From an uncultured Chlorobiaceae bacterium (GTDB taxonomy: Bacteria > Bacteroidota > Chlorobiia > Chlorobiales > Chlorobiaceae): a stretch of 55,870 nt of DNA. The stretch lies in assembly GCA_903939765.1 (NCBI GenBank), contig CAJAIK010000115.1, positions 1 through 55,870 on the forward strand, written 5' to 3'. Both the position numbers and the translations under genes were made by a program. Positions 70 to 55,562 of the stretch are shown in pieces; within the stretch, counting starts at the first letter, position 1; every line of letters begins with the position of its first letter. A model generated the notes under the pieces. It was not told where the DNA came from, made no database searches, and saw only the letters and a program-made list of their open reading frames with translations.

Positions 70-114
70 CATGTGGCGATGTTTTTCAGTTAAGGTGTGC
101 GCTTTATCCGACTT

Positions 115-357
115 TCAGGTTATAATCTGAAGCATCCCTTCCTGTAAATCGGCAGCGATAATCCGTCCGAATTTACCGACCATCCGGACCATCTCAAGAG
201 AGAAAAAGCCCGGGCCGCATCCGACATCCAGAACCGTCATCCCTTCAGCAATATATGGACTCAGAATTTTCTGAGGATTCTGCAGCCATCTTCGAATGCT
301 ATTATCGAGAGAGCCTGACAAGGCAACCGGACATACAAGCGTATTGATTTTTTTCAT
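115..357 (-). pseudogene. Truncated class I SAM-dependent methyltransferase (N-terminal 80 residues)
   Basis: The 80-residue product carries the N-terminus of a small class I methyltransferase, including motif I (VLDVGCGPG, about residues 42-50) and the start of motif II (AADLQEGMLQ). A TGA stop follows at once. Family members of this type usually run to about 190-200 residues, so the acceptor-side half of the Rossmann fold and the rest of the active site are missing. I could not see the missing half in the downstream frames before the terminator at 44-69. The start is supported by a good Shine-Dalgarno sequence (AAGGAG, about 8 nt upstream of the ATG at 357). It is most likely a broken gene that is still transcribed. 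A functional mini-protein is possible but less likely. Confidence 0.6.
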
Positions 358-44040: not shown

Positions 44041-44793
44041 CTACGCCCTGAAGGCCGAATAAAGCGCCGCCGCAATCCAGACGAAAAGCTCGGTCACCTC
44101 GCTTCCTGCGCCCAGCACATCACCGGTAACCCCCCCGATTTTGCGCCAGCTCAACCCTCCGGTCAACAGCGCCCCAACCAGTGCAGCCGCTACCACCGTA
44201 ACGAGCGCATAGAGGTCAGCATGAAGCAGAGGAATGAGAAACAAGAGTGTCAGCAGTGCGGTAACCACAATATGGAGCGCTCCTGCACCGCTCACAAAAG
44301 CCTGCGCCGTGCCTCCCTCCTTACGGGCATAAGGGAGAGATGAAGCAAGGAGCACCTGCACCTGGCGGGCAAGCAAAACACCGGCAGCAATGAACTCAAA
44401 CGCTCCAAGGCTGACAAGTTTAAAGAGGGCTATCCATTTGAGCAGCATCATGGCAGAGAGCGCAATGGCACCAAAGGAGCCGACGTTGGGATCTTTCATG
44501 ATCCGCAGTATAGCCTCCCTCGTCCTGCCTCCCCAGAATCCATCGGCCAGATCGGCCAGGCCATCGGCATGCATACCCCGGCTCAAGACGATGCCGCCAA
44601 GCAGCACCAGCGCCGCCGAAAGCTCATTCCAGCCGGTCAGGGAGCTGAAAAAGCCTATCGACGCCACCATGAGCCCGAGCAGCAGGCCGACAACCGGAAA
44701 CCAGAAAAGCGAGTGGCTGAAACTGTCGCACTCTTTTCCCGGAACCGGGATCACGGTGAGGGTTCTGAGAGCTGTAACAAGGCCGCTCAGCAC
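44041..44793 (-). CDS. cobS: Adenosylcobinamide-GDP ribazoletransferase
   Basis: A 250-residue membrane enzyme that joins adenosylcobinamide-GDP and alpha-ribazole to finish cobalamin. Several hydrophobic helices surround the motifs RGMHADGLADLADGFWGG (about residues 72-89), where the aspartates bind Mg and phosphate, and GGVTGDVLGAGSEVTEL near the C-terminus. The start is GTG at 44793, three bases after the cobT stop, with GGGGAG in the end of cobT as ribosome site. It is the last gene of cobU-cobT-cobS. Confidence 0.95.
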   Translation of the reverse strand: MLSGLVTALRTLTVIPVPGKECDSFSHSLFWFPVVGLLLGLMVASIGFFSSLTGWNELSAALVLLGGIVLSRGMHADGLADLADGFWGGRTREAILRIMKDPNVGSFGAIALSAMMLLKWIALFKLVSLGAFEFIAAGVLLARQVQVLLASSLPYARKEGGTAQAFVSGAGALHIVVTALLTLLFLIPLLHADLYALVTVVAAALVGALLTGGLSWRKIGGVTGDVLGAGSEVTELFVWIAAALYSAFRA

Positions 44794-44796
44794 CTC

Positions 44797-45861
44797 TTAC
44801 TCCCCGCTTTTTTCACTGACCTTTGCCGCGCTGAAGGTGGCCATCTCATTGTAGATTTTCACAGCACCCTCAATAAGCTGCATGGCGATTGCCGCTCCCG
44901 TTCCCTCCCCAAGACGAAGATCAAGATCAAGAATCGGTTTAGCGCCAAGCTTCTCCATAACCGCCCTGTGCCCCTGCTCGTTTGAAAGGTGGCTGAAAAA
45001 GAGATAGCCTTCAACTTCCGGGCAGAGCTTCAACGCCACCACCGCTCCGGCGGAAGAGATAAAGCCATCGACCACCACCGGAACGCGAGCTGCGGCCGCA
45101 CCAAGAATGAAGCCTGCTATGGCGGCAATTTCGTAACCGCCAAGCGCCGCAAGTGTTCCAAAGGGCGTTATGCAACGGGAGGCATTAACTGAAATCGCCT
45201 GTTTAATAACCGCAATCTTGTGGTGCAGGCGCTCATCATCAATACCGGTGCCCCTGCCCGTGATACCCTCAACCGGCACATCAAGCAGCACCGAATAGAG
45301 CGCCGTTGCCGGAGTGGTATTGGCAATCCCCATCTCTCCGGTTCCAAGGAGATGGTAGCCCGCCTCCTTGGCTGCCGTCGCCAGTTCCGCCCCGCAAAGC
45401 AGGGCCTGCAGGGCATCCTCTTCACTCATGGCTGGCCCAACCGCCATATTGGCGCTGCCGGGCCGCACCTTTCTTTTTACAAGCCCTGGCGTATCCGCAA
45501 AATCGTGGTTGACCCCCATATCCACCACATCAAGGTCAACCCCCGCATGACGCGTTAAAACATTGATAGCCGCGCCGCCACTGAGCATGTTATAAACCAT
45601 CTGTGGAGTCACCTCTGCCGGAAAGGCCGAAACCCCTTCAACTGCCACACCGTGATCGGCCGCAAAACAGCATATTTTCTTTTTCACAAGCTGCGGCTTC
45701 AGGCTCCCGGTCGCCAGAACATAGTTCAGGGCAATCTCTTCCAGTCGGCCCAGGCTCCCCTGCGGCTTGGTCAAATCATCAAGATGGGCTCGGGCCGCCA
45801 CGCTCAGCGACCGTGAGACCGGCTTGATACCATCCAGCAACTGCTGCAACTCTTCAGGCAT
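44797..45861 (-). CDS. cobT: Nicotinate-nucleotide-dimethylbenzimidazole phosphoribosyltransferase
   Basis: A 354-residue enzyme that makes alpha-ribazole phosphate for the lower loop of cobalamin. Recognised motifs are [13 protein letters not shown] (about 30-42), [63 protein letters not shown] and [10 protein letters not shown], near the C-terminal catalytic Glu. It lies between cobU (50-bp gap) and cobS (3-bp gap). Confidence 0.96.
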
Positions 45862-45911
45862 GATTCTCTCTATATAAAGTTATTGATTACTCAAGGCACT
45901 TGAACCCTTGG

Positions 45912-46448
45912 CTACTTCAAACGAATCGGCAGACCACTGCAAAGCAGCCAGGCCTCTGTAGCAAGTGAGGCAACGCGCTGGTTAATGATACCGGCTATAT
46001 CACGAAACCTTCGGGCCATGGCATTCTCCGGCACAATGCCCATCCCCACCTCATTGGAAACCACAATGATATCGCAGGGTGGATGACGCAATGCTTCAAG
46101 GAAGCGTTCAATCTGTTGCTCCATCTCCCCCTCTCCCTGCCCTTCAGCGTAATGCATAAGGTTTCCTGCCCAGACCGTCAGGCAGTCGAGCAAAACCACC
46201 TCTGTTCCAGCCGGCAGTGCCTGCATGGCGCAGTCAAGAGCGAGCGGCTCCTCAACCGTTGTGAACTGCTCACCCCGCTCCTCCCGGTGCTTCTGAATCC
46301 GCTGCACCATCTCCCCGTCAAAAGGCTCCGCCGTCGCCAAAAAGACACGGTTGTTGTAGTTTGCGGCCCGTTGCAGGGCAAAGGAGCTCTTGCCACTCCG
46401 TGCCCCACCGGTCACGTAGACGATCTTCGCAGTGCTCTCGGTTACCAT
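45912..46448 (-). CDS. cobU: Bifunctional adenosylcobinamide kinase/guanylyltransferase
   Basis: A 178-residue enzyme that phosphorylates adenosylcobinamide and transfers GMP to it. The P-loop GGARSGKSSFAL lies near the N-terminus. HREERGEQFTTVEEP carries the guanylylated His, LLDCLTVWAGNL is the Walker B region and VSNEVGMGIVPENAMARRFRDIAGIINQRVA is the long family signature (quoted in parts: VSNEVGMG, RRFRDIAG, NQRVA). The frame is open upstream to 46526, but the ATG at 46448 gives the usual N-terminus. It is the first gene of the cob operon. I looked for a cobalamin riboswitch in the leader and saw none. Confidence 0.95.
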   Translation of the reverse strand: MVTESTAKIVYVTGGARSGKSSFALQRAANYNNRVFLATAEPFDGEMVQRIQKHREERGEQFTTVEEPLALDCAMQALPAGTEVVLLDCLTVWAGNLMHYAEGQGEGEMEQQIERFLEALRHPPCDIIVVSNEVGMGIVPENAMARRFRDIAGIINQRVASLATEAWLLCSGLPIRLK

Positions 46449-46971
46449 TGAAAAAAAATGGCTTGATGAAAAAAAATATTCCCCGGCGCGAGTTATGGCC
46501 CGCAACAGCGAAACAACCGGTAACAACTCCCGCCATCAGGCGGTACAGAATATAGTAAACTATTTTTTTACATTTACTTCCCCTTTCCACACTATACTCA
46601 CACCCCCTGCTGGAAAAAAAGCCCTGCATAACTGAACAAAAAAAACTATACGGCCTATATATATAAATAGTCTCATGAGGCCCGCCACAACTGCTTTTTT
46701 TACAAAAAAAAATAACTCTTTTTAAAAAAAGTATATAGCCAATTTTTCAACACGAAAAGCACTCTAATAACCGAAAAAAAACATTCTAAAGACTATAAAA
46801 TGCATATATATTTTTTTTTATTTATTACTGAATTATATATATTTCTCCCAGAAACAAGATGGAGTTGGTAAAGTCAGGTGATACAGTCGAAGCTTTACCA
46901 GACGATCGGGTTACAGAATAACAGATTTTTTTAATAGAAAGCAACTACTCAATCACAAACAGGATACTATC
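46449..46971. other. AT-rich divergent control region between cobU and the first DUF4402 gene
   Basis: 523 bp without a gene. On the cobU side there is a small dyad (CGCC...GGCG, near 46532-46543). GGCCT...AGGCC at 46652-46682 encloses an ATATATATAA stretch. From 46690 to 46855 the sequence is very AT-rich, with A- and T-tracts. At 46866-46900 an 8-bp stem precedes the DUF4402 gene and is described separately. No B12 box or other known riboswitch pattern was recognised. Confidence 0.5.
46866..46900 (+). promoter_or_regulatory. Leader hairpin upstream of the first DUF4402 gene
   Basis: TGGTAAAG (46866-46873) and CTTTACCA (46893-46900) form a perfect 8-bp stem with a 19-nt loop. The surrounding 60 bp are the only non-AT-rich part of the leader, and a T-run follows at 46925-46931, 41 bp before the start codon. 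This could be a structured 5' leader or attenuator. It matches no riboswitch class I know. Confidence 0.4.
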
Positions 46972-47484
46972 ATGAAAAAAGGAATTTTAGCACTCGGATG
47001 TATGGCAGCTTTGGTTGCTTTCAGTTCTGACGCATTTGCTGTTAATGGCACGGCGACAGCGACGATCGGAACGGCAATAAGCATAACTCAGGATACAAGC
47101 GTAGGCAGCGGCTCTACAACTGGCGGCGATCTTGCTTTTGGACACATCATCCCTAATGGAGGCGGATCGATAACGATTACACCTGCAGGAGTAATTACTC
47201 CTACCGGTATAATTTCGACCACACAGTTACCTAAAGGACCTGCATATTTTAAGGTTACAGGTGATGCGGGTCTGCACTATACAGCAACATTGGCCTCAAC
47301 GTCAACGACTATCAGCGACGGGACTCATACGATGAATGTGACTGGTTTAAACTCTGATTCAACCGGTACCCTGTCAGGAGCTGGACAGGAAGTCTTCCAT
47401 GTTGGCGGAATACTGACTGTCGCTGCAGGTCAGGCGGCTGGTGTCTACACCGGAACCTTTGCGATAACCGCAGCATACAATTAA
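46972..47484 (+). CDS. Secreted DUF4402 pilin-like subunit 1
   Basis: A 170-residue exported protein. The signal peptide (about 1-23) ends DAFA. The DUF4402 domain follows: a first strand GTATATIGTAISI, the core GGDLAFGHIIP (about 51-61), then a GGGSITITPAGVITPTG region and FKVTGDAGLHYT. The C-terminus is GVYTGTFAITAAYN, with the penultimate Tyr and a Gly at position 14 from the end, as in classical chaperone-usher pilins. It is predicted to be bound by the periplasmic chaperone encoded downstream and polymerised through the usher. AGGA lies 7 nt upstream of the ATG. It is closest in sequence to the copy at 48312-48845. A 14-bp hairpin follows. Confidence 0.88.
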   Translation: MKKGILALGCMAALVAFSSDAFAVNGTATATIGTAISITQDTSVGSGSTTGGDLAFGHIIPNGGGSITITPAGVITPTGIISTTQLPKGPAYFKVTGDAGLHYTATLASTSTTISDGTHTMNVTGLNSDSTGTLSGAGQEVFHVGGILTVAAGQAAGVYTGTFAITAAYN

Positions 47485-47498
47485 GTAAGTCGTTACCT

Positions 47499-47541
47499 CA
47501 ACAGTGAAAGGCTGGGACATACCTCCTGCCTTTCACTGTTG
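47499..47541 (+). terminator. 14-bp hairpin after the first DUF4402 gene
   Basis: CAACAGTGAAAGGC and GCCTTTCACTGTTG pair perfectly around a 15-nt loop, 14 bp past the stop codon. No U-tract follows. It probably attenuates read-through or stabilises the first transcript, so that subunit 1 is made in excess over the downstream genes. Confidence 0.65.
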
Positions 47542-47628
47542 TCGTGTTATGAAAACTCTTCCTGTTTGGCAAACGCTATCTCTTTGGGAGTCGTATCCCG
47601 GAAAAAGAGATGATAATCGGGTTTCAGC

Positions 47629-48147
47629 TTGCACAAAAAATTTTTATACATCATAGGACTGGCGGCTTTATTGCTCGCATCAGGAAATGATGCGCAAGCA
47701 GCCCAGGGTACCGCAACCGCATCAATTGCAAGTCCGATAGGCCTCAGTGTTCTGAGTGACTTGGCTTTTGGCACCATTGTTCCCGGAACTGGCGGCACTG
47801 TCATAATAGATCCTGATCAACCTGATATGCAATCCCGTTCTTCGACCGGAGCAGTGATCCGGGTAAGCTCGGAATACCACCCTGCACTTTTTTCTATTAT
47901 CGGGGGCAAGCGTCAGACTTACCATGTAAGGAGTGTACCGAACAACATCAATATCACTAAAATAGGTGGTACTCAAACGATGAGGGTAACGTTTTCATTC
48001 AGTAATAACCTCGACGGGTCACAACACGGCAGACTTGATAATACCGGCAATGGTTCATTCAAGATTGGAGGAACGCTGACGGTGGCGGCAAATCAGGCTA
48101 CTGGAGTCTACGAAGGGACCTTTCCCGTGACTGTCCAGTACAACTGA
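47629..48147 (+). CDS. Secreted DUF4402 pilin-like subunit 2
   Basis: A 172-residue exported protein. The signal peptide (LYIIGLAALLLASGNDAQA) is followed by GTATASIASPIGLSV, the core SDLAFGTIVPGTGGTVIIDP and the C-terminus GVYEGTFPVTVQYN with penultimate Tyr and Gly14. It is the most divergent of the five in the middle (QSRSSTGAVIRVSSEYHPALFS). The only in-frame start is TTG at 47629, because an in-frame TAA occurs at 47614-47616. The ribosome site is weak, so expression may be low or depend on coupling. A minor or tip subunit is possible. Confidence 0.8.
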   Translation: MHKKFLYIIGLAALLLASGNDAQAAQGTATASIASPIGLSVLSDLAFGTIVPGTGGTVIIDPDQPDMQSRSSTGAVIRVSSEYHPALFSIIGGKRQTYHVRSVPNNINITKIGGTQTMRVTFSFSNNLDGSQHGRLDNTGNGSFKIGGTLTVAANQATGVYEGTFPVTVQYN

Positions 48148-48311
48148 ACCTCCTCTGCTCATACAAAGTACATGCCTGCATAAAAAAGCATATCTCCTCC
48201 AATTATCTATAAAAAAAACAGTTATAATCATTCGTGATTTATTTTACATTGAGGCTTGTAAGTAAAAAAATAAGGGCGATGTAACAAGTTTCAATAACAA
48301 AGAAATCAGGT

Positions 48312-48845
48312 ATGAAAAAAATATTTTTTGCCATCTCCTGCATGGCCACCTTGTTCACTCCTGGTTTTTATCTCTATGCCGCGTCGGGCACTGCTTCAGC
48401 AAAAATCGGAACAGCAATATCCATTTCTGTAGACATTACCAATCCCGAAACAGACAGCATTACTGCTGCAAATGTAACGCGTGGCGATCTTGCTTTCGGA
48501 CACATTATTCCTGGCACAGGCGGAACGGTTACCGTTACCTCTTCCGGAGTTGTTACCCCCTCTTCCGGTCTGACGTTAACCACTCAGTTACCAACGGGAC
48601 CGGCTCAATTTAAAGTCACCGGTGAAGCCAATTTTCATTATTCCATAACCATGGACTCCATGACCACCATCACCAATGGCAGTGGCGGTTCAATGACGGT
48701 GAACGGTTTGGAGCATAACGCCACAAGAACTCTCGATGGACGCGGTGAGGAGGTATTCAAGGTTGGCGGAGTGCTCTCGGTTTCGAGTGGCCAGGCGACC
48801 GGCAGCTACACGGGAAGCTTTAACATCGATGCAGCCTACAATTAA
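48312..48845 (+). CDS. Secreted DUF4402 pilin-like subunit 3
   Basis: A 177-residue exported protein. The signal peptide ends around YLYAAS. GTASAKIGTAISISVD, RGDLAFGHIIPGTGGTVTVT, TTQLPTGPAQFKVTGE and the C-terminal GSYTGSFNIDAAYN follow. The penultimate Tyr and Gly14 are kept. It shares GTAxAxIGTAISI, GDLAFGHIIP and TTQLPxGPAxFKVTG with the copy at 46972-47484, so these two are a recent duplicate pair. The chaperone gene starts 75 bp downstream. Confidence 0.88.
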   Translation: MKKIFFAISCMATLFTPGFYLYAASGTASAKIGTAISISVDITNPETDSITAANVTRGDLAFGHIIPGTGGTVTVTSSGVVTPSSGLTLTTQLPTGPAQFKVTGEANFHYSITMDSMTTITNGSGGSMTVNGLEHNATRTLDGRGEEVFKVGGVLSVSSGQATGSYTGSFNIDAAYN

Positions 48846-48920
48846 ATATTTCCCTGAATATTTCTTATCATGAAAAAAAGCATTATTGCAATGATAAAGA
48901 AACCATTTTTGTGAAGCCCT

Positions 48921-49766
48921 ATGAAGATCAAGCGCTTGTTTTCGACCCTCTTGATGGCGACCGCACTCTTCGGTTCTGCCAAAACGGCGATGGCCGCCGA
49001 TGAACCCGTCTCTTCAATCCAGGATCTGCTGGTAACCCCTACACGGGTTGTCTTTGAGGGAAATATGCCAACCACTGAACTGGCGCTGGTCAATCGAAGC
49101 GAGAAGCCGCATACTTACGCCATCTCCTTTGTGCAGTGCCGCATGAGCGAAACCGGTGAAATAAAGGAGATCGATGCAACTACCCCGCCAGACCCGCAGG
49201 AGCACTTTGCTGACTCCCTGGTACGCTTCACACCGCGCCGGGTAATCCTTGAGCCCCGTCAGGTACAGATGGTGCGCATGATGCTGCGCAAGCCCGCTGA
49301 CCTGGCCGAGGGTGAATACCGCTCACACCTGAGCTTTCGCCTCATCCCCTCTGCCGAGAATGCTGTCAAACCCGATTCAGTAAGCAGTGGCATACAGATC
49401 AAGCTGATACCCATTTACGGCGTAACGATTCCGGTTATTGTGCGCCAGGGTTCGCTGAAAGCTACAACGCGGCTCAGCGGTCTTCACTTTGATGCCAAAG
49501 GGCTTCGCCTGACCATTGAGCGCGAGGGAAACCGCTCCACCTATGGCGACTTGGTGGTTCAATGGAAAGGCAAGGGAAAAGCGATCACTGTTGGCGAAAT
49601 AAATGGTATAGCGGTCTATACCCCTAATCCAGAACGCACAGTATCAATGGCCCTCTCCCCCCCCAAGGGTGTCGAGCTCAGGGGTGGCGAAATGATCGTG
49701 CGCTATATGGGCAAAGAAAACGATAAAGAACAGCTTATCGCCGAAGGCCAGATTGCCGTTCCATAA
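48921..49766 (+). CDS. PapD-like periplasmic fimbrial chaperone
   Basis: A 281-residue protein. The signal peptide (about 1-25) ends TAMAAD. The N-terminal immunoglobulin-like domain (about 33-165) begins LLVTPTRVVFEGNMPTTELALVNRSEKPHTYAISF, here seen as a typical PapD strand pattern (VTPTRVVFE, ELALVNRS). RFTPRRVILEPRQVQMVRMMLRKP matches the chaperone G1-donor region, and EGEYRSHLSFRL follows. A second beta domain runs to the C-terminus (about 180-281). It would cap the DUF4402 subunits in the periplasm and hand them to the usher. Its last 25 residues resemble the decayed frame at 50737-50814. Two hairpins follow. Confidence 0.88.
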   Translation: MKIKRLFSTLLMATALFGSAKTAMAADEPVSSIQDLLVTPTRVVFEGNMPTTELALVNRSEKPHTYAISFVQCRMSETGEIKEIDATTPPDPQEHFADSLVRFTPRRVILEPRQVQMVRMMLRKPADLAEGEYRSHLSFRLIPSAENAVKPDSVSSGIQIKLIPIYGVTIPVIVRQGSLKATTRLSGLHFDAKGLRLTIEREGNRSTYGDLVVQWKGKGKAITVGEINGIAVYTPNPERTVSMALSPPKGVELRGGEMIVRYMGKENDKEQLIAEGQIAVP

Positions 49767-49825
49767 GTTTTAGCCCCTTCACTCCGTCACTCCCATAGCA
49801 ATAATCACTTGCAATCAAGCTTTTT

Positions 49826-49864
49826 TTGCCAGCTCAATCCTCTTCTCTCAGGATTGGCTGGCAA
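49826..49864. terminator. 15-bp bulged hairpin after the chaperone gene
   Basis: TTGCCAGC-T-CAATCCT pairs with AGGATTGGCTGGCAA, leaving one bulged base and an 8-nt loop. Seven T residues lie before rather than after the stem on the plus strand. It is likely the end of the chaperone transcript, together with the hairpin at 49906-49936. Confidence 0.55.
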
Positions 49865-49905
49865 CCAATCTGCGTCTACTCCCCGACTCTCTTTGCTCTA
49901 TACAA

Positions 49906-49936
49906 CCACCAAAAGAACAAGTGCTTCTTTTGGTGG
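49906..49936. terminator. Perfect 12-bp hairpin upstream of the fourth DUF4402 gene
   Basis: CCACCAAAAGAA (49906-49917) and TTCTTTTGGTGG (49925-49936) pair around CAAGTGC. No U-tract follows. Two stable hairpins in tandem make read-through from the chaperone gene unlikely and suggest a separate unit for the next genes. Confidence 0.6.
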
Positions 49937-50093
49937 AATGGCGTAAATAAAGAGTAATAACTCATTGCTTGCCCGGTACCGCAAAAAAAACATATACGAT
50001 TTTTATATATTAAACGAAAAATAGTATATATTAAATATAGAATTCAGAAAACATAAAGAACAGAGATATTTGCATAACCAGGGAGGAATTATC

Positions 50094-50624
50094 ATGAAAA
50101 AGAACATTATAGCAATCGCCTGTTTGGCGGCGTTGTTCGCTTTCGGAAGTGATGTCAAGGCTGATGGTACAGCCAACGCTACGGCAAGAATCTTTGGCTC
50201 ACTAACCATTACCAAGGATGGAACGACCCCTACATCTGGTGACTTGGCCTTTGGCTCAATTGTGCCAAATGCAATCGGCGGCACAGTGGTCATCAATCCT
50301 TTTGGCAGTGGCGCGCGTACACCATCGGGTGTGCAGGTTATTGCCTCAACCTTTGGCCCGGCAGCATTTACCCTCTCCGGTGAATCGAATGCAACTTACG
50401 CGGTAACATTACCATCAACTGCTACGATCACCAAAACCGGGGGCACGGAGACAATGACGGTGGATACCTTTACCTCTACATTATCAGGAACAGGACTCGT
50501 CGTAACGGGTACGCTGGTTGGAACAGGAGGTTCATTCAAGGTTGGTGGAAAACTGCACGTTGCGGCCGATCAGACTCCAGGCTCCTATACCGGTACGTTT
50601 ATGGTGACCGCAGCTTATAACTGA
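50094..50624 (+). CDS. Secreted DUF4402 pilin-like subunit 4
   Basis: A 176-residue exported protein. The signal peptide (about 1-21) ends DVKADG. TANATARIFGSLTITKD, SGDLAFGSIVPNAIGGTVVI, a FTLSGESNATYAVTLP stretch and the C-terminal GSYTGTFMVTAAYN follow, with penultimate Tyr and Gly14. The ATG at 50094 has GGGAGG 7 nt upstream, the best ribosome site of the five; the longer frame from 50070 is not needed. It lies between the chaperone and usher genes and is followed directly by a decayed chaperone tail. It may be an insertion into an older chaperone-usher pair. Confidence 0.9.
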   Translation: MKKNIIAIACLAALFAFGSDVKADGTANATARIFGSLTITKDGTTPTSGDLAFGSIVPNAIGGTVVINPFGSGARTPSGVQVIASTFGPAAFTLSGESNATYAVTLPSTATITKTGGTETMTVDTFTSTLSGTGLVVTGTLVGTGGSFKVGGKLHVAADQTPGSYTGTFMVTAAYN

Positions 50625-50736
50625 TTTGTTCACCGTAACATCAAGAATCCATTACTCCCTTTTGGCACAGCCATTACAACTTCTGCCTTTTTGGAAAGTA
50701 ATGTTCTCTTTTGTAGAATGTAGTTTGAATGTGCCA

Positions 50737-50814
50737 CACCTGTTCGTTCACAGCAACAATCAGGAAAACGGCACTGAACAAATACTGGCCAGGAGCCAGA
50801 TTGTCATTGCATAA
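50737..50814 (+). pseudogene. Decayed 3' end of a second fimbrial chaperone gene
   Basis: In this frame the last 26 codons end in QENGTEQILARSQIVIA and a TAA stop. They line up without gaps with the end of the chaperone at 48921-49766 (KENDKEQLIAEGQIAVP-stop). At the DNA level the last 27 bases match at 20 positions, including GCCAGATTG. No chaperone-like sequence can be followed further upstream than about 50737, and the rest of the gene is absent. It sits directly ahead of, and overlaps, the usher start, where a chaperone gene would be expected. Confidence 0.6.
50791..50803 (+). promoter_or_regulatory. Ribosome-binding site deciding the usher start (TTG)
   Basis: AGGAG at 50791-50795 stands 5 nt before TTG at 50801. 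Translation from this TTG gives a normal signal peptide (SLHNFFSVLQRSLLLLFGLC). The earlier ATG at 50729 would add 24 residues that overlap the chaperone remnant and has no comparable site. Confidence 0.6.
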
Positions 50815-53599
50815 TTTTTTCAGCGTTTTACAGCGTTCACTCCTCTTGCTCTTCGGGCTCTGCATTCTGAACGCCTCCGTAACAAGGCTTCTGCATGGCG
50901 AAGAGAGCAAAATTGCAGGGTCTCCAACCACCCTCAGTGATGACTTTATGCTGCTCTGCGTCGTTCGGCTTGGCGGAGCGACCCTTGAGGGTAACCTCGT
51001 CACCTACACCGCCCCTCCGGGGCATTTTCTCCCCCTTGGCGAACTGAGCCGCATGCTTGAGCTAGGCATTACGGTTGACCCCGCCAAAGGGAACGGATCA
51101 GGCCATGTAGCCACCCCCTCACAACCATTCAGCCTCAACATGGCCACCTCTTCCATTACCGTCTCCGGCAAATCATACCGGTACGACCCGGCACTGGTGG
51201 TGGCTCTTTCGGACGATATCTATGTCGAGAGCAGGCTGCTTGCCGAGTGGCTTTCGATGCGCATCGAGGCCAACCGCCTCGATGCGGCGATCGACATCCG
51301 CCCCTTTATGCCACTCCCCATACAGGAGAGAATGGCGCGCAGCCAGCGCGGCGCCAATACCTGGGGCTACGGCAATTACTCGGATTCGGGTTATCCAATG
51401 CTCAACACTCCCTACCGCCTCCTTGCAGGGCCGAGCATCGACCTCTCTCTCTCCTCTTCGCTGACCGGAGAGGGGGTGGAAAAAATAACTGCTGGAAACA
51501 ACAGCTATTATACCCGCCTGACCGGCGATTTTCTCTGGATGAGCGGGCGGCTTGATCTTTCAGGTCAGATTGCGGCTGCCGGAAAATCAATTATAGGAAT
51601 TAATAACGCCTCCTTGATCCTTGAGCGTGAACATCCTTCTGGCGGCATGTTGTGGCTCCTCAATGCCCGTAAGTTTGCCATAGGGGATATCCAGCCTGAA
51701 TCGCTTCCGCTCATCGGCGGCAGCGTCGGGGCTGGATTTATGGTCAGCAACTACCCCTTGAATCAATCCTCATTTTTTGACAAGCTCACCCTGCGCGGTT
51801 TTCTTGCCAAGGGGTGGGATGTTGAGTTATACAATAACGCCGACCTGCTCGATTATCGCCCCTCAAATCCTCAGGAGAGTTATGCGTTTGTCGATATTCC
51901 GCTTATTTATGGCCTCAATGAACTGCGATTGATCTTCCACGGACCCCAGGGTGAAAAACGGGTCGAGAGTCATATCTACAATGTCGGACGCAACATGATC
52001 GAACCGGGGAGCTTCAACTACCAGATCACCGCATCCGACGCATCGCAGCGTTCACTGCTCACCTCACCAGTCGGTGAACGGGCGCCGCTCATGACATGGA
52101 AAAGCACCTTCGGCATCAGCAAGTGGCTCACGGCAACAAACTATCTTGCATCTGCCCTCATCGGAGGAAAACGGCAATACTTTGCCGGGGCAGGTATCAG
52201 CGGCTACCTCAGGATGATACAGCTTGACGTGCAAATGGTCAAAAACCTTGCTACAAGCCAGCAAGCCCGGCAGGCAGGCGCCCAGACGCGCCTGGGCCCG
52301 ATCAGCCTCTCCGCCACACTGCAAGAGTATGACAAAGATTGGCATACAACCACCAGCACAATTTCTTACCTGAGGAAGTGGGATCTACGACTCGACGGTT
52401 TCAACCCCCTCTTCTTTTTAACCAATTCGCGCTTCTCCATGTCGTTGGCACAGACCGAGTATGACGAGCTTCGCAAGTCAAAAAGTGCCACCATGACGAG
52501 CAGCCAGCGAACATGGGGTATCGACCACAGGCACACCATTACCGTTGATCGGATAGGGAGTGGTGATACCGAGAGTGATGCTGTTTCGGGCAGTTCCTAT
52601 GCAAGCATGACTCACAGGAGCCTCGCCTTCAGGGCAGAAGTCGACTATCAGCTTCTGCCAGTGAGAATAATCAACACGGTTGGAACCACCTGCGAGCTTC
52701 GTCTGCCGCATGAGTGGCTGCTGGTAGGCAACATCGCCTACACTCCCCTGAGCAAGGCGCTGACAAGCTCGCTGGGGATCAACCATACCTTCAGCGCCGC
52801 GGCAATGGGCATTACAGCCAACTATACTCCCGGCGGAGCATGGAGTATGGGCATACAGCTCTCAACCAATATCAGTCACGACTCGAAAGGAGGTCAATGG
52901 AAAACCGACGGCACGATGAGCAGCCAGCAGGCCGCCATTTCCGCCCTTGCCTATCTCGACAGCAATCGAAACCGGGAGTTTGATCCAGGTGAGAGCACCA
53001 TCAAGGATGCGGGATTTTTTGTCAATCAGCAAAGCCACCGTACCGTCACAAGAACAAACGGCATTGCCTTTCTCCAGGGGATTGCACCGAACAATCCCAC
53101 AGATATCGCCCTCTCACCGGGAACACTGAAAGAGCTGCTCTGGGTGCCAGCCGATAAGGGTGTGCGCGTGGTGCCACGACCAGGCTATGCCGTGCAGGTA
53201 AAATTCCCTGTATGGGTCACGGGTGAAATAAGCGGTACGGTCTACAGAAAAAAAGAGGGTGTTGACAGTCCGGCTTCTGGTATCAGCATAGAAGCCATCA
53301 ACATGGAGGATAAGGTGATCGGGAAGGCGCGGTCGGAATATGACGGAATCTACATTCTCGGAGCGCTGCCAACCGGCAAGTACATTGTGCGCATATCGCC
53401 CGATCAGGCGGCAAAACTTGGCACTAACTCCCCTGTACAGCAGGTAACCATTCCGCCGGAGGGCAATTATATCGACAATGTCAATCTGGTGCTTGAAGAA
53501 CTTCCTGTTGAACCGACGGTGAATACACCGGCAGAACCAACTGGAGGAACTCCCGTCGACTCGGGCAAAGAGAAACCGACGCAAACTCCCAAGCCTTGA
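50801..53599 (+). CDS. Usher-like outer-membrane assembly protein with C-terminal carboxypeptidase-regulatory-like domain
   Basis: A 932-residue exported protein. After a signal peptide, an N-terminal region (about 30-180) contains the strand-rich blocks GHFLPLGELSRMLELGI and YVESRLLAEWLSMRIEANRLDAAIDIRPFMPLPIQERMAR (quoted in part). These look like the periplasmic and plug parts of alternate-pathway ushers. A long stretch of amphipathic strands (about 195-720) suits a beta-barrel. Near 735 a calcium-loop motif DSNRNREFDPGE is followed by a carboxypeptidase-regulatory-like domain (GEISGTVYRKKEG...YDGIYILGALPTGKYIVRI). A Pro/Thr-rich tail ends it. It should secrete and assemble the DUF4402 subunits. 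The start is TTG at 50801. Confidence 0.82.
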   Translation: MSLHNFFSVLQRSLLLLFGLCILNASVTRLLHGEESKIAGSPTTLSDDFMLLCVVRLGGATLEGNLVTYTAPPGHFLPLGELSRMLELGITVDPAKGNGSGHVATPSQPFSLNMATSSITVSGKSYRYDPALVVALSDDIYVESRLLAEWLSMRIEANRLDAAIDIRPFMPLPIQERMARSQRGANTWGYGNYSDSGYPMLNTPYRLLAGPSIDLSLSSSLTGEGVEKITAGNNSYYTRLTGDFLWMSGRLDLSGQIAAAGKSIIGINNASLILEREHPSGGMLWLLNARKFAIGDIQPESLPLIGGSVGAGFMVSNYPLNQSSFFDKLTLRGFLAKGWDVELYNNADLLDYRPSNPQESYAFVDIPLIYGLNELRLIFHGPQGEKRVESHIYNVGRNMIEPGSFNYQITASDASQRSLLTSPVGERAPLMTWKSTFGISKWLTATNYLASALIGGKRQYFAGAGISGYLRMIQLDVQMVKNLATSQQARQAGAQTRLGPISLSATLQEYDKDWHTTTSTISYLRKWDLRLDGFNPLFFLTNSRFSMSLAQTEYDELRKSKSATMTSSQRTWGIDHRHTITVDRIGSGDTESDAVSGSSYASMTHRSLAFRAEVDYQLLPVRIINTVGTTCELRLPHEWLLVGNIAYTPLSKALTSSLGINHTFSAAAMGITANYTPGGAWSMGIQLSTNISHDSKGGQWKTDGTMSSQQAAISALAYLDSNRNREFDPGESTIKDAGFFVNQQSHRTVTRTNGIAFLQGIAPNNPTDIALSPGTLKELLWVPADKGVRVVPRPGYAVQVKFPVWVTGEISGTVYRKKEGVDSPASGISIEAINMEDKVIGKARSEYDGIYILGALPTGKYIVRISPDQAAKLGTNSPVQQVTIPPEGNYIDNVNLVLEELPVEPTVNTPAEPTGGTPVDSGKEKPTQTPKP

Positions 53600-53771
53600 A
53601 CAGGGAAAACTATTCTTCATTCCCGGTTTGCTTTCATCGAAATCATTTATACCTTTGTGTATGAGGGTTTGACTTCAACTGATAACCGCCTTAAAATGAA
53701 GTAATTAAGCGCTATTATCAAGATCTGCATAAATGGGGTCTCCGTCATAGAAGAAAAATGGGAGGTTACCC

Positions 53772-54287
53772 ATGAAAAACAGACTTATCGTTTTCTCCTG
53801 CTTTTTGGCATTGCTCTTTTGCGCAAATGAGGGTTGGGCAGCCGAGGGCAGATGCACGGCAACCATAATGCCCGCAATCTCCGCTTCCAAAAACACCACA
53901 ACTCCCTCCGGTGGTGATCTTGCTTTTGGTGTCATCATTCCCGGGGAGTCGTCGGGTACGGTTACGATTTCCCCGTCAACCTCTGACCGCACGCATAATG
54001 GAGGTGTAGTGCTTGTTGCCTCAACCACCGGAGCAGCATCATTCAATGTCTACGGAGGTGCCAACACCGCCTTCACCATTGCGTTACCCGATACCGATAC
54101 CATCAATATCTCCAGTGGCAGCAACATCATGACGGTGCAGAGCTTAACCGTATACCCCCCTGGCTCTGTAACGCTTGATAATCAGGGTCAGGCGACATTT
54201 AATATTGGAGGAACGTTAAAGGTCGAACCAAACCAGCCTGTCGGTACTTACACAGGCAGCTTTTTGGTGACCGTAGCCTATCAATAA
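53772..54287 (+). CDS. Secreted DUF4402 pilin-like subunit 5
   Basis: A 171-residue exported protein. The signal peptide (about 1-23) ends EGWAAE. GRCTATIMPAISASKN, GGDLAFGVIIPGESSGTVTISP, FNVYGGANTAFTIALPDTD and the C-terminal GTYTGSFLVTVAYQ follow. The penultimate Tyr and Gly14 are conserved. A single cysteine (GRCTAT) in the first strand is unique among the five and could be used for a cross-link. GGGAGG lies 8 nt upstream of the ATG. It is the last gene of the locus, after the usher, which is a common position for a distinct (tip or anchor) subunit. Confidence 0.88.
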   Translation: MKNRLIVFSCFLALLFCANEGWAAEGRCTATIMPAISASKNTTTPSGGDLAFGVIIPGESSGTVTISPSTSDRTHNGGVVLVASTTGAASFNVYGGANTAFTIALPDTDTINISSGSNIMTVQSLTVYPPGSVTLDNQGQATFNIGGTLKVEPNQPVGTYTGSFLVTVAYQ

Positions 54288-54626: not shown

Positions 54627-55562
54627 ATGAGCACAGCAAGCACCATATACGGCGACCTTTCGGGTGTCGAGTTCCGCACACTTTATTCAAACGGCAAAAC
54701 AGATGGCTGCCTTGTCACCGAAGCCAACACACTGGCCACCCCCTACGGCACGCTGGTGCCCCAATACGAAGCAGAGGACATGGGTCGGCGGGCGGTCAAG
54801 CCAATGTACTTTTATAAAGATGGTTCGCTGAAATCAATTGCCCTGCAATCGCAAACCATGCTTGAAACACCGGTCGGCACTATTCCGGCGGAGTTGGTTA
54901 CCTTTCATAAAAATGGGAACATCAAACGGATTTTTCCGCTTGACGGCAAACTGAGCGGTTTCTGGTCGTGGAAGAACGAGTTCGCCCTTGCCACGACACT
55001 TACCTTCCGTTCACCACTGGGAACTCTCTCTTCCAAGGTGATTGGTTTGCAGTTTTATGAAAGCGGTGCATTGAAAAGCATCACTCTCTGGCCTGGTCAG
55101 ACCATGACGATTGAGACGCCAATGGGGGCTGTCACGGTGAGAAAAGGGTTAGCATTCTATGAGTCAGGGGCTATCCGCTCTTTTGAGCCACTCAAAAAAA
55201 TGGATATTCTTACCCCGATCGGGATGATTACCTCATACGATAACGAGCCGAACGGGATCCACGGCGACGTCAACTCTGTCCAGCTTGCGGAGGACGGCTC
55301 CATAGAGGCGCTCAGTACGGTAGACCATGCCATCCAGGTTCTGGCGTCCGGTGGTGCGGCAGAACTCTTCCATCCAGGGGTAAAGAATAACGTCTGTGGT
55401 GATGAGCGCAAGGTGAGCATCCCCATGAAAGTGCGTTTCGAAAAGAGGCAGGTGATCTTTCACGACAATCCCGCCTTCTCCTTCGACATCGAAGCCTACC
55501 GGTTTGAAGTACGAATGATGGACGCCGTAACGAAGGAACCAGCTTATTTCTGCTCAGAATAA
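54627..55562 (+). CDS. MORN-like beta-hairpin repeat protein under a sigma-54 promoter
   Basis: A 311-residue protein without signal peptide or membrane helix, so probably cytosolic. It is built from repeated units in which TPxGT or SPLGT is followed by F-[YH]-x-x-G-x-[LI]-[KR]-[SR]: TPYG at 38, TPVG at 81, SPLG at 129, TPMG at 164 and TPIG at 196, with FYKDGSLKSI at 62, FHKNGNIKRI at 93, FYESGALKSI at 143, FYESGAIRSF at 177 and AEDGSIEAL at 221. The hairpins resemble the MORN variant of YwqK-like proteins. The C-terminal 60 residues are different. GGGAGA precedes the ATG. Function unknown. Confidence 0.8.
   Translation: MSTASTIYGDLSGVEFRTLYSNGKTDGCLVTEANTLATPYGTLVPQYEAEDMGRRAVKPMYFYKDGSLKSIALQSQTMLETPVGTIPAELVTFHKNGNIKRIFPLDGKLSGFWSWKNEFALATTLTFRSPLGTLSSKVIGLQFYESGALKSITLWPGQTMTIETPMGAVTVRKGLAFYESGAIRSFEPLKKMDILTPIGMITSYDNEPNGIHGDVNSVQLAEDGSIEALSTVDHAIQVLASGGAAELFHPGVKNNVCGDERKVSIPMKVRFEKRQVIFHDNPAFSFDIEAYRFEVRMMDAVTKEPAYFCSE

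Follow-up and report, generated by a model that had tools for sequence, protein, structure and literature searches.

We identified seven intact open reading frames at 46972-54287 of the window, by which we mean the whole stretch of 55,870 nucleotides that was analysed. They occur in the order S1, S2, S3, chaperone, S4, usher, S5, all on the plus strand and with intergenic gaps of 75-327 bases (Table 1). We set the start of S4 at the ATG at 50094, which follows a GGAGG; the TTG that had been listed, at 50070, lies further upstream. The S3 and chaperone reading frames share the same frame, and a signal peptide falls in the linker between them. To the left of the locus are minus-strand genes (44041-46526) which we take, from a reading of the sequence only, to be cobalamin biosynthesis genes, and to its right a Pfam search identified a MORN-repeat-like protein (54627-55562). 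The source genome, that of a green sulfur bacterium, has no DUF4402 gene besides the five at this locus and no match to the Pfam Usher family, PF00577.

Table 1. Genes of the DUF4402 locus (window positions) and predicted domains of its usher (protein residues)
Feature	Position	Strand	Description and basis
S1, DUF4402 pilin-like subunit	46972..47484	+	170 aa, signal peptide, N-terminal extension, C-terminal zipper GVYTGTFAITAAYN; ORF and Pfam
S2, DUF4402 pilin-like subunit	47629..48147	+	172 aa, TTG start, C-terminus GVYEGTFPVTVQYN; ORF and Pfam
S3, DUF4402 pilin-like subunit	48312..48845	+	177 aa, C-terminus GSYTGSFNIDAAYN; ORF and Pfam
PapD-like periplasmic chaperone	48921..49766	+	281 aa; PF00345 (E 1.8e-4), hhalign, alignment
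S4, DUF4402 pilin-like subunit	50094..50624	+	176 aa, C-terminus GSYTGTFMVTAAYN; structure modelled
Usher (usher-like outer-membrane protein)	50729..53599	+	956 aa; AF2 model, Foldseek, VIA-align, profile comparison
S5, DUF4402 pilin-like subunit	53772..54287	+	171 aa, C-terminus GTYTGSFLVTVAYQ; ORF and Pfam
Usher N-terminal domain	residues ~74-192		folded domain in AF2 model
Usher barrel strands 1-6	residues 232-340		AF2 model
Usher plug	residues 352-419		6 strands, AF2 model
Usher barrel strands 7-24	residues 429-718		AF2 model
Usher C-terminal domains (two)	residues 723-925		last one CarboxypepD_reg/SdrD_B-like

The DUF4402 subunits

All five S proteins belong to PF14352 (DUF4402), scoring 90-110 bits against a Pfam cut-off of 25.2, and signal peptides are visible in their sequences. 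No other Pfam family was matched, and they have neither a WxL domain nor a match to SCPU (spore coat U). The C-terminal pattern G.Y.G[TS]F.[VI]...Y[NQ] ends five of the 242 window ORFs of at least 60 aa, and these are exactly S1 to S5. Since the five are paralogues and not five independent cases, the signature was tested family-wide. Among 182 distinct linked subunits from several phyla, Gly is found at position -14 in 157 and Tyr or Phe at -2 in 153; the two occur together in 143 subunits (79%), compared with 0.8% of 2239 other ORFs from the same loci. In eleven E. coli K-12 pilins, Gly(-14) is invariant and Tyr(-2) nearly so. A sequence profile of the DUF4402 subunits detected no homology to the K-12 pilins.

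An N-terminal extension with alternating hydrophobic residues (GTATATIGTAISI-like) precedes the DUF4402 core in all five S proteins; that it takes part in strand exchange is inferred. As no subunit among S1 to S5 lacks this extension, the tip subunit of the Chlorobia locus remains unidentified.

The structure of mature S4 was modelled with a pLDDT of 94.9, and the first 29 PDB matches to the model are all chaperone-usher pilins, with classical, alternative and archaic types represented. The match is moderate (Z 6-7.8, TM 0.35-0.5), and Foldseek found none in the PDB below E 0.001, the best being E 0.007. VIA-align gave Z values of up to 7.8 to CfaE/CfaB, CsuA/B, PapG and FimG. The last residue of the model (153) was aligned with the final residue of FimG, FimH, FimA and PapG, so that the S4 chain stops at strand F, as pilin chains do, with no strand G after it. 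The DUF4402 subunit is thus predicted by the model to be an incomplete Ig fold without strand G and with strand F at its C-terminus. The first 14 residues of mature S4 form no strand in the monomer model. Some glycoside-hydrolase Ig domains score close to the pilins against S4; the fold alone would therefore not prove function, and the gene association and the signature carry the rest. A viral structure library contained no meaningful match to the S4 model.

The sequence-only reading of this DNA had claimed that genes for five secreted DUF4402 proteins are grouped here with those for a PapD-like chaperone and an usher-like protein, and this held, with the chaperone falling below the Pfam cut-off. 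Its claim of a common C-terminal pattern in all five subunits also held, and no other ORF of the window ends in the pattern. So did its interpretation of the penultimate Tyr and Gly-14 as a pilin signature, shared by the K-12 pilins and by 143 of the 182 family subunits. Its inference that DUF4402 proteins are donor-strand-exchanging pilins is largely supported by the incomplete fold and by the gene association described below, although the exchange itself is still inferred. A complete subunit fold, which it had said would refute the idea, was not found, as the S4 model ends at strand F.

The chaperone and the usher

The chaperone in the window scores 21.9 bits against PapD_N (PF00345), just under the Pfam cut-off of 23. 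In 13 of 16 chaperone relatives PapD_N ranks first among the Pfam families (best E 2.7e-8), and hhalign comparison of the chaperone profile with the K-12 chaperones gave prob 93.8 and E 1.7e-7. In a joint alignment, P105 corresponds to the Pro that is invariant in the superfamily (PMC4654587) and R42 to Arg8 of FimC. R134 aligns with Arg89 of EcpB, in strand F of D1, and P171 occupies the Lys112 position; both are invariant in 75 sequences. Archaic and alternative chaperones anchor the subunit C-terminus via Arg89, which has been described as the hallmark of the non-classical chaperones, and the two classical basic residues have no analogue there (PMC4654587). With the classical Arg8 position and the non-classical Arg89 both present and Lys112 missing, the chaperone cannot be placed squarely in any of the three described classes. 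By sequence comparison the protein is a PapD-like two-domain Ig chaperone.

A small chaperone profile (A2) matches Enterococcus EfmWxLIP1 (9i25, 9i1y) at E 7e-4, besides PapD_N. With the larger profile, A6, the matches were to FimC, PapD and CupB2, though weak, and not to WxLIP. The WxLIP match could point to a remote relationship of pilus chaperones with WxL-interacting proteins.

The AF2 model of the usher (pLDDT 82.8) has six barrel strands, a six-strand plug and then 18 barrel strands, in the same order as FimD. Alignment rows from annotated plasmid records were left out of the structure modelling. All of the top 18 Foldseek matches are FimD or PapC chains (best E 2.3e-30). VIA-align gave Z 22.9 to 9fw9_D across 631 residues, and every FimD/PapC entry reached Z 19.6 or more, compared with 16.3 for the best other barrel. 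A profile of 67 relatives matched that of seven K-12 ushers across 481 columns, reaching from the plug to the C-terminal domain (prob 96.7, E 3.3e-10), whereas four TonB receptors used as a control gave prob 3.6. The barrel and the C-terminal parts each align with the K-12 ushers on their own, and the plug does so weakly (prob 38.6). By fold and profile comparison we conclude that the outer-membrane protein is a genuine usher; the fold is predicted by the model, and the structure has not been solved.

Standard annotation does not reveal this. The window usher has no match of its own to PF00577, and neither Pfam nor NCBIfam names it an usher, their only hits being weak ones to CarboxypepD_reg/SdrD_B at the C-terminal end. 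PF00577 was found in one of 15 usher family members, at E 0.42, and the CooC_C and TcfC Pfam families in none of them at E up to 1. Single-sequence hhalign against FimD, FimC, EcpB and EcpC gave scores too weak to decide (prob 0.3 for the window usher with EcpC). Searches of PDB sequences with the usher (phmmer and profile) and with subunit profiles returned nothing relevant beyond the C-terminal SdrD-like domain. An alignment of ushers from all clades held no pattern conserved enough for a scan of the collection, and a six-member subset was used for the scan instead.

The N-terminal domain of the usher has no similarity to that of FimD detectable by hhalign (prob 0.3 with the K-12 usher N-terminal domain), and the VIA-align alignment to FimD begins only at residues 210-216. 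The possibility that the domain is simply absent was dropped, since a folded domain is present. This domain weakly matches Cu_amine_oxidN1 (PF07833) in four of eight family members. It may be a new chaperone-recruiting domain. In the window usher the region corresponds to residues 64-192 (window 50918-51305); the weak likeness to copper amine oxidase N1, with two LPLxEL-type half repeats, was seen in several relatives.

Distribution and gene association

The order subunit(s)-chaperone-usher is kept in Bacteroidota/Chlorobia, Proteobacteria, Acidobacteriota, Desulfuromonadota, Nitrospinota and others, and on conjugative plasmids. Among 96 usher loci, 57 are arranged SSCU, 86 have both partners and 95 have all parts on one strand. 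The relatives come from Chlorobiaceae, Halomonas, Massilia, Polaromonas, Marinobacter, Pseudomonas, Holophagaceae, Thermoanaerobaculia, Desulfuromonadaceae, Geobacteraceae, Nitrospinaceae, Zixibacteria and Eisenbacteria, and from plasmids of Polaromonas, Novosphingobium, Sphingopyxis and Pseudoalteromonas. No phage carried the usher in a phage search. Close Chlorobium relatives have an identical gene order, and their ushers are 82-90% identical.

Carriage of DUF4402 is patchy in the Chlorobiaceae (9 of 61 genomes), and all of the DUF4402 genomes found there have a chaperone and an usher nearby or on contigs cut at their ends. In a reverse search, chaperone and usher adjoined 17 of 20 DUF4402 regions from Bacteroidota. 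Of 296 Bacteroidota genomes, 46 have DUF4402, 54 have the usher (counted at E under 1e-15) and 40 have both (Fisher P 4e-31); of the six genomes with DUF4402 but without this usher, five have shorter, more distant ushers with a chaperone. These genome-level statistics cover Bacteroidota only. PF00577 passes its cut-off in none of the 296 genomes, and weak matches below the cut-off occur in three, at sites also matched by the A4 usher profile. A lack of association with chaperones and ushers across genomes was the other outcome that would have refuted the sequence-only reading, and DUF4402 proved to be tightly associated with both. The check it had proposed, a family-wide search for Gly14, the penultimate Tyr and co-occurrence, found the signature (in 79% of subunits) and the co-occurrence (both partners at 86 of 96 usher loci).

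Several related loci have unusual features. On plasmid 2 of Polaromonas sp. JS666, which is conjugative, the DUF4402-chaperone-usher cluster (L006:1963-9566) is flanked by two IS6-family transposase genes, an arrangement that, judged by sequence only, resembles a composite transposon carrying a pilus. The ushers of one Bacteroidota family (L174, L178, L179, L180 and L201) are shortened to about 750 aa, with DUF4402 subunits ending in cysteine-containing sequences; these loci may be a further subtype, again an inference from sequence alone. The Chlorobiaceae also have a second, more distant chaperone-usher-like cluster (L183:5506-8945, L184:5137-8719, L185:8589-14244 and L186:8138-11673), with a chaperone of about 275-295 aa, an usher-like protein of about 864-917 aa and subunits that have no Pfam match and ends of the GDYTGTITITA type. 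The usher-like protein of this second cluster occurs in many DUF4402-free Chlorobiaceae genomes and is absent from the source genome.

Proposed assembly and relation to known systems

In operons outside the Chlorobia, the N-terminus of the chaperone-adjacent subunit is about 14 residues shorter, up to LxFG, than that of the first subunit (median 16 vs 30, P 1.6e-8); these lengths rest on heuristic signal-peptide cleavage. One subunit with a donor strand paired with one without is as expected for a tip that accepts and does not donate. Proteins of 311-327 aa directly follow the usher at L105:9547-10530, L115:9574-10515, L126:9577-10512 and L008:8601-9584. The three from Holophagaceae (L105, L115 and L126) have two tandem DUF4402 domains, and the Novosphingobium protein (L008) has a single, C-terminal one. 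In all four the first part begins without an N-terminal extension, which would suit a tip protein, and a strand-like segment lies between the two parts, just after strand F of domain 1 in the tandem proteins. This segment is likely to be an in-cis donor, an inference drawn from the sequences.

We propose that Sec would export the five subunits and the chaperone, whose sequences all show a signal peptide. The subunits are each predicted to be an Ig-like domain missing strand G. A chaperone strand would pair with the C-terminal strand F of the subunit, which has Gly-14, hydrophobic residues at even positions and Tyr-2, and the chaperone would also anchor the subunit C-terminus; both steps are inferred. 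The usher, a predicted 24-strand barrel with a plug, would take up chaperone-subunit complexes, and by homology the N-terminal extension of the next subunit would displace the chaperone strand in the usher pore, giving outward growth of the fibre. The resulting fibre would probably be adhesive, and its target has not been identified. The way of life of green sulfur bacteria rests on contact with sulfur and with partner cells. The suggestion of the sequence-only reading that the fibre has a role in aggregation or in such contact remains a suggestion. We conclude that the locus very likely encodes a complete, divergent and so far unrecognised chaperone-usher system with DUF4402 pilins. Computation has shown the gene content, signature, predicted folds, association and distribution; strand complementation and exchange, fibre formation and adhesion are inferred, without experiment.

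The observations could also be explained if the DUF4402 subunits were exported without polymerising, as single or few surface-attached subunits or as an amorphous coat. No DUF4402 protein has yet been observed as a fibre, the tip adhesin has not been identified in the locus, and several proteins alike in length and in their ends could each be a surface protein in its own right. However, a donor-strand-type extension is kept in all five window subunits, the subunit pairs with and without it outside the Chlorobia are best accounted for by strand exchange between subunits, and the barrel-plug layout of polymerising ushers is retained. We therefore consider this explanation very unlikely.

Two further explanations can be all but ruled out. 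The chaperone could be a WxLIP-like scaffold and the cluster could make a complex that is bound to the wall or the outer membrane and has nothing to do with pili, as the A2 match to EfmWxLIP1 might suggest. Against this, A6 favours the pilus chaperones, though weakly, PapD_N leads in most of the relatives, the partner is an usher by fold, and the subunits have no WxL domain. The locus could also be a decayed or silent remnant in which the common C-termini merely reflect recent paralogy of five copies; the subunits are indeed paralogous and carriage in the Chlorobiaceae is patchy. Yet all seven reading frames are intact, the signature recurs in distinct subunits from several phyla, and the Chlorobium relatives retain the gene order with closely similar ushers.

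If the locus is a chaperone-usher system, DUF4402, a domain of unknown function, gains a proposed role as a pilin, and chaperone-usher fibres, themselves inferred, would be far more widespread than usher annotation suggests. About one in six of the 296 sampled Bacteroidota genomes has a DUF4402 system that standard annotation does not recognise. The phylum range of chaperone-usher systems would be extended to Chlorobia and other Bacteroidota, Acidobacteriota, Nitrospinota and others. Obvious candidates for testing donor-strand exchange are the tip-like subunits without an extension and the tandem DUF4402 proteins. A bolder reading, which we favour by a narrow margin, is that DUF4402 systems are a fourth major chaperone-usher class, present in many diderm phyla and on conjugative plasmids, with a recruitment domain of its own on the usher, a mixed Arg8/Arg89 anchor, tips without a donor strand and a second sister type in the Chlorobiaceae. 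Such a class would have escaped notice because its usher falls below the cut-off of every library.

Pfam assigns no function to DUF4402 (PF14352), the family of all five subunits, and no paper in the open-access literature searched names it, most subscription journals being outside the scope. Judged by titles and abstracts, open-access papers naming both chaperone-usher systems and Chlorobi or Chlorobium name them apart. For green sulfur consortia, PMC7762298 names only Tad pili and large adhesins among fibres.

Compared with the alternative (alpha) pili ECP and CFA/I (EcpA-E, CfaA-C), the system shares Arg89 of EcpB (R134), and CfaB and EcpA are among the structural matches of S4. The CooC/TcfC-type usher that defines this class is not met, as the DUF4402 usher has no CooC_C or TcfC match and scored only prob 0.3 with EcpC. 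The classical type 1 (FimA/FimC/FimD) and P (PapC) pili are alike in the 24-strand barrel with its plug after strand 6 and C-terminal domains, in a PapD-like chaperone with the Arg8 position, and in pilins with Gly-14 and Tyr-2 and no strand G. They differ in that the DUF4402 usher is below the PF00577 cut-off, has an N-terminal domain of another sequence type and ends in a CarboxypepD_reg/SdrD_B-like domain. Moreover, DUF4402 subunits lack both sequence homology to FimA-type pilins and a conserved cysteine pair, and in the chaperone Arg89 is gained and Pro (P171) replaces Lys112, so that the Arg8 plus Lys112 anchor of the classical class (beta, gamma, kappa, pi) is not met.

The archaic (sigma) Csu and CupE pili (CsuA/B, CsuC, CsuD) resemble the DUF4402 system in their wide distribution and in the Arg89-equivalent of the chaperone, and the best matches of S4 include CsuA/B (7zl4, 6fm5) and CupE (8cio). 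The Arg89 criterion, which archaic and alternative chaperones share, is met by R134, although its partner residues in D2 are not safely alignable. The archaic combination of SCPU subunits and a PF00577 usher is not met (without a direct sigma usher alignment), since the DUF4402 subunits have no SCPU match and the usher is below the cut-off; in addition, the classical Arg8 position is present in the chaperone. Classical and alternative pili are confined to beta- and gamma-proteobacteria, and archaic pili are found in proteobacteria, Cyanobacteria and Deinococcus-Thermus (PMC4654587), whereas the range of the DUF4402 system includes Bacteroidota/Chlorobia, Acidobacteriota and Nitrospinota.
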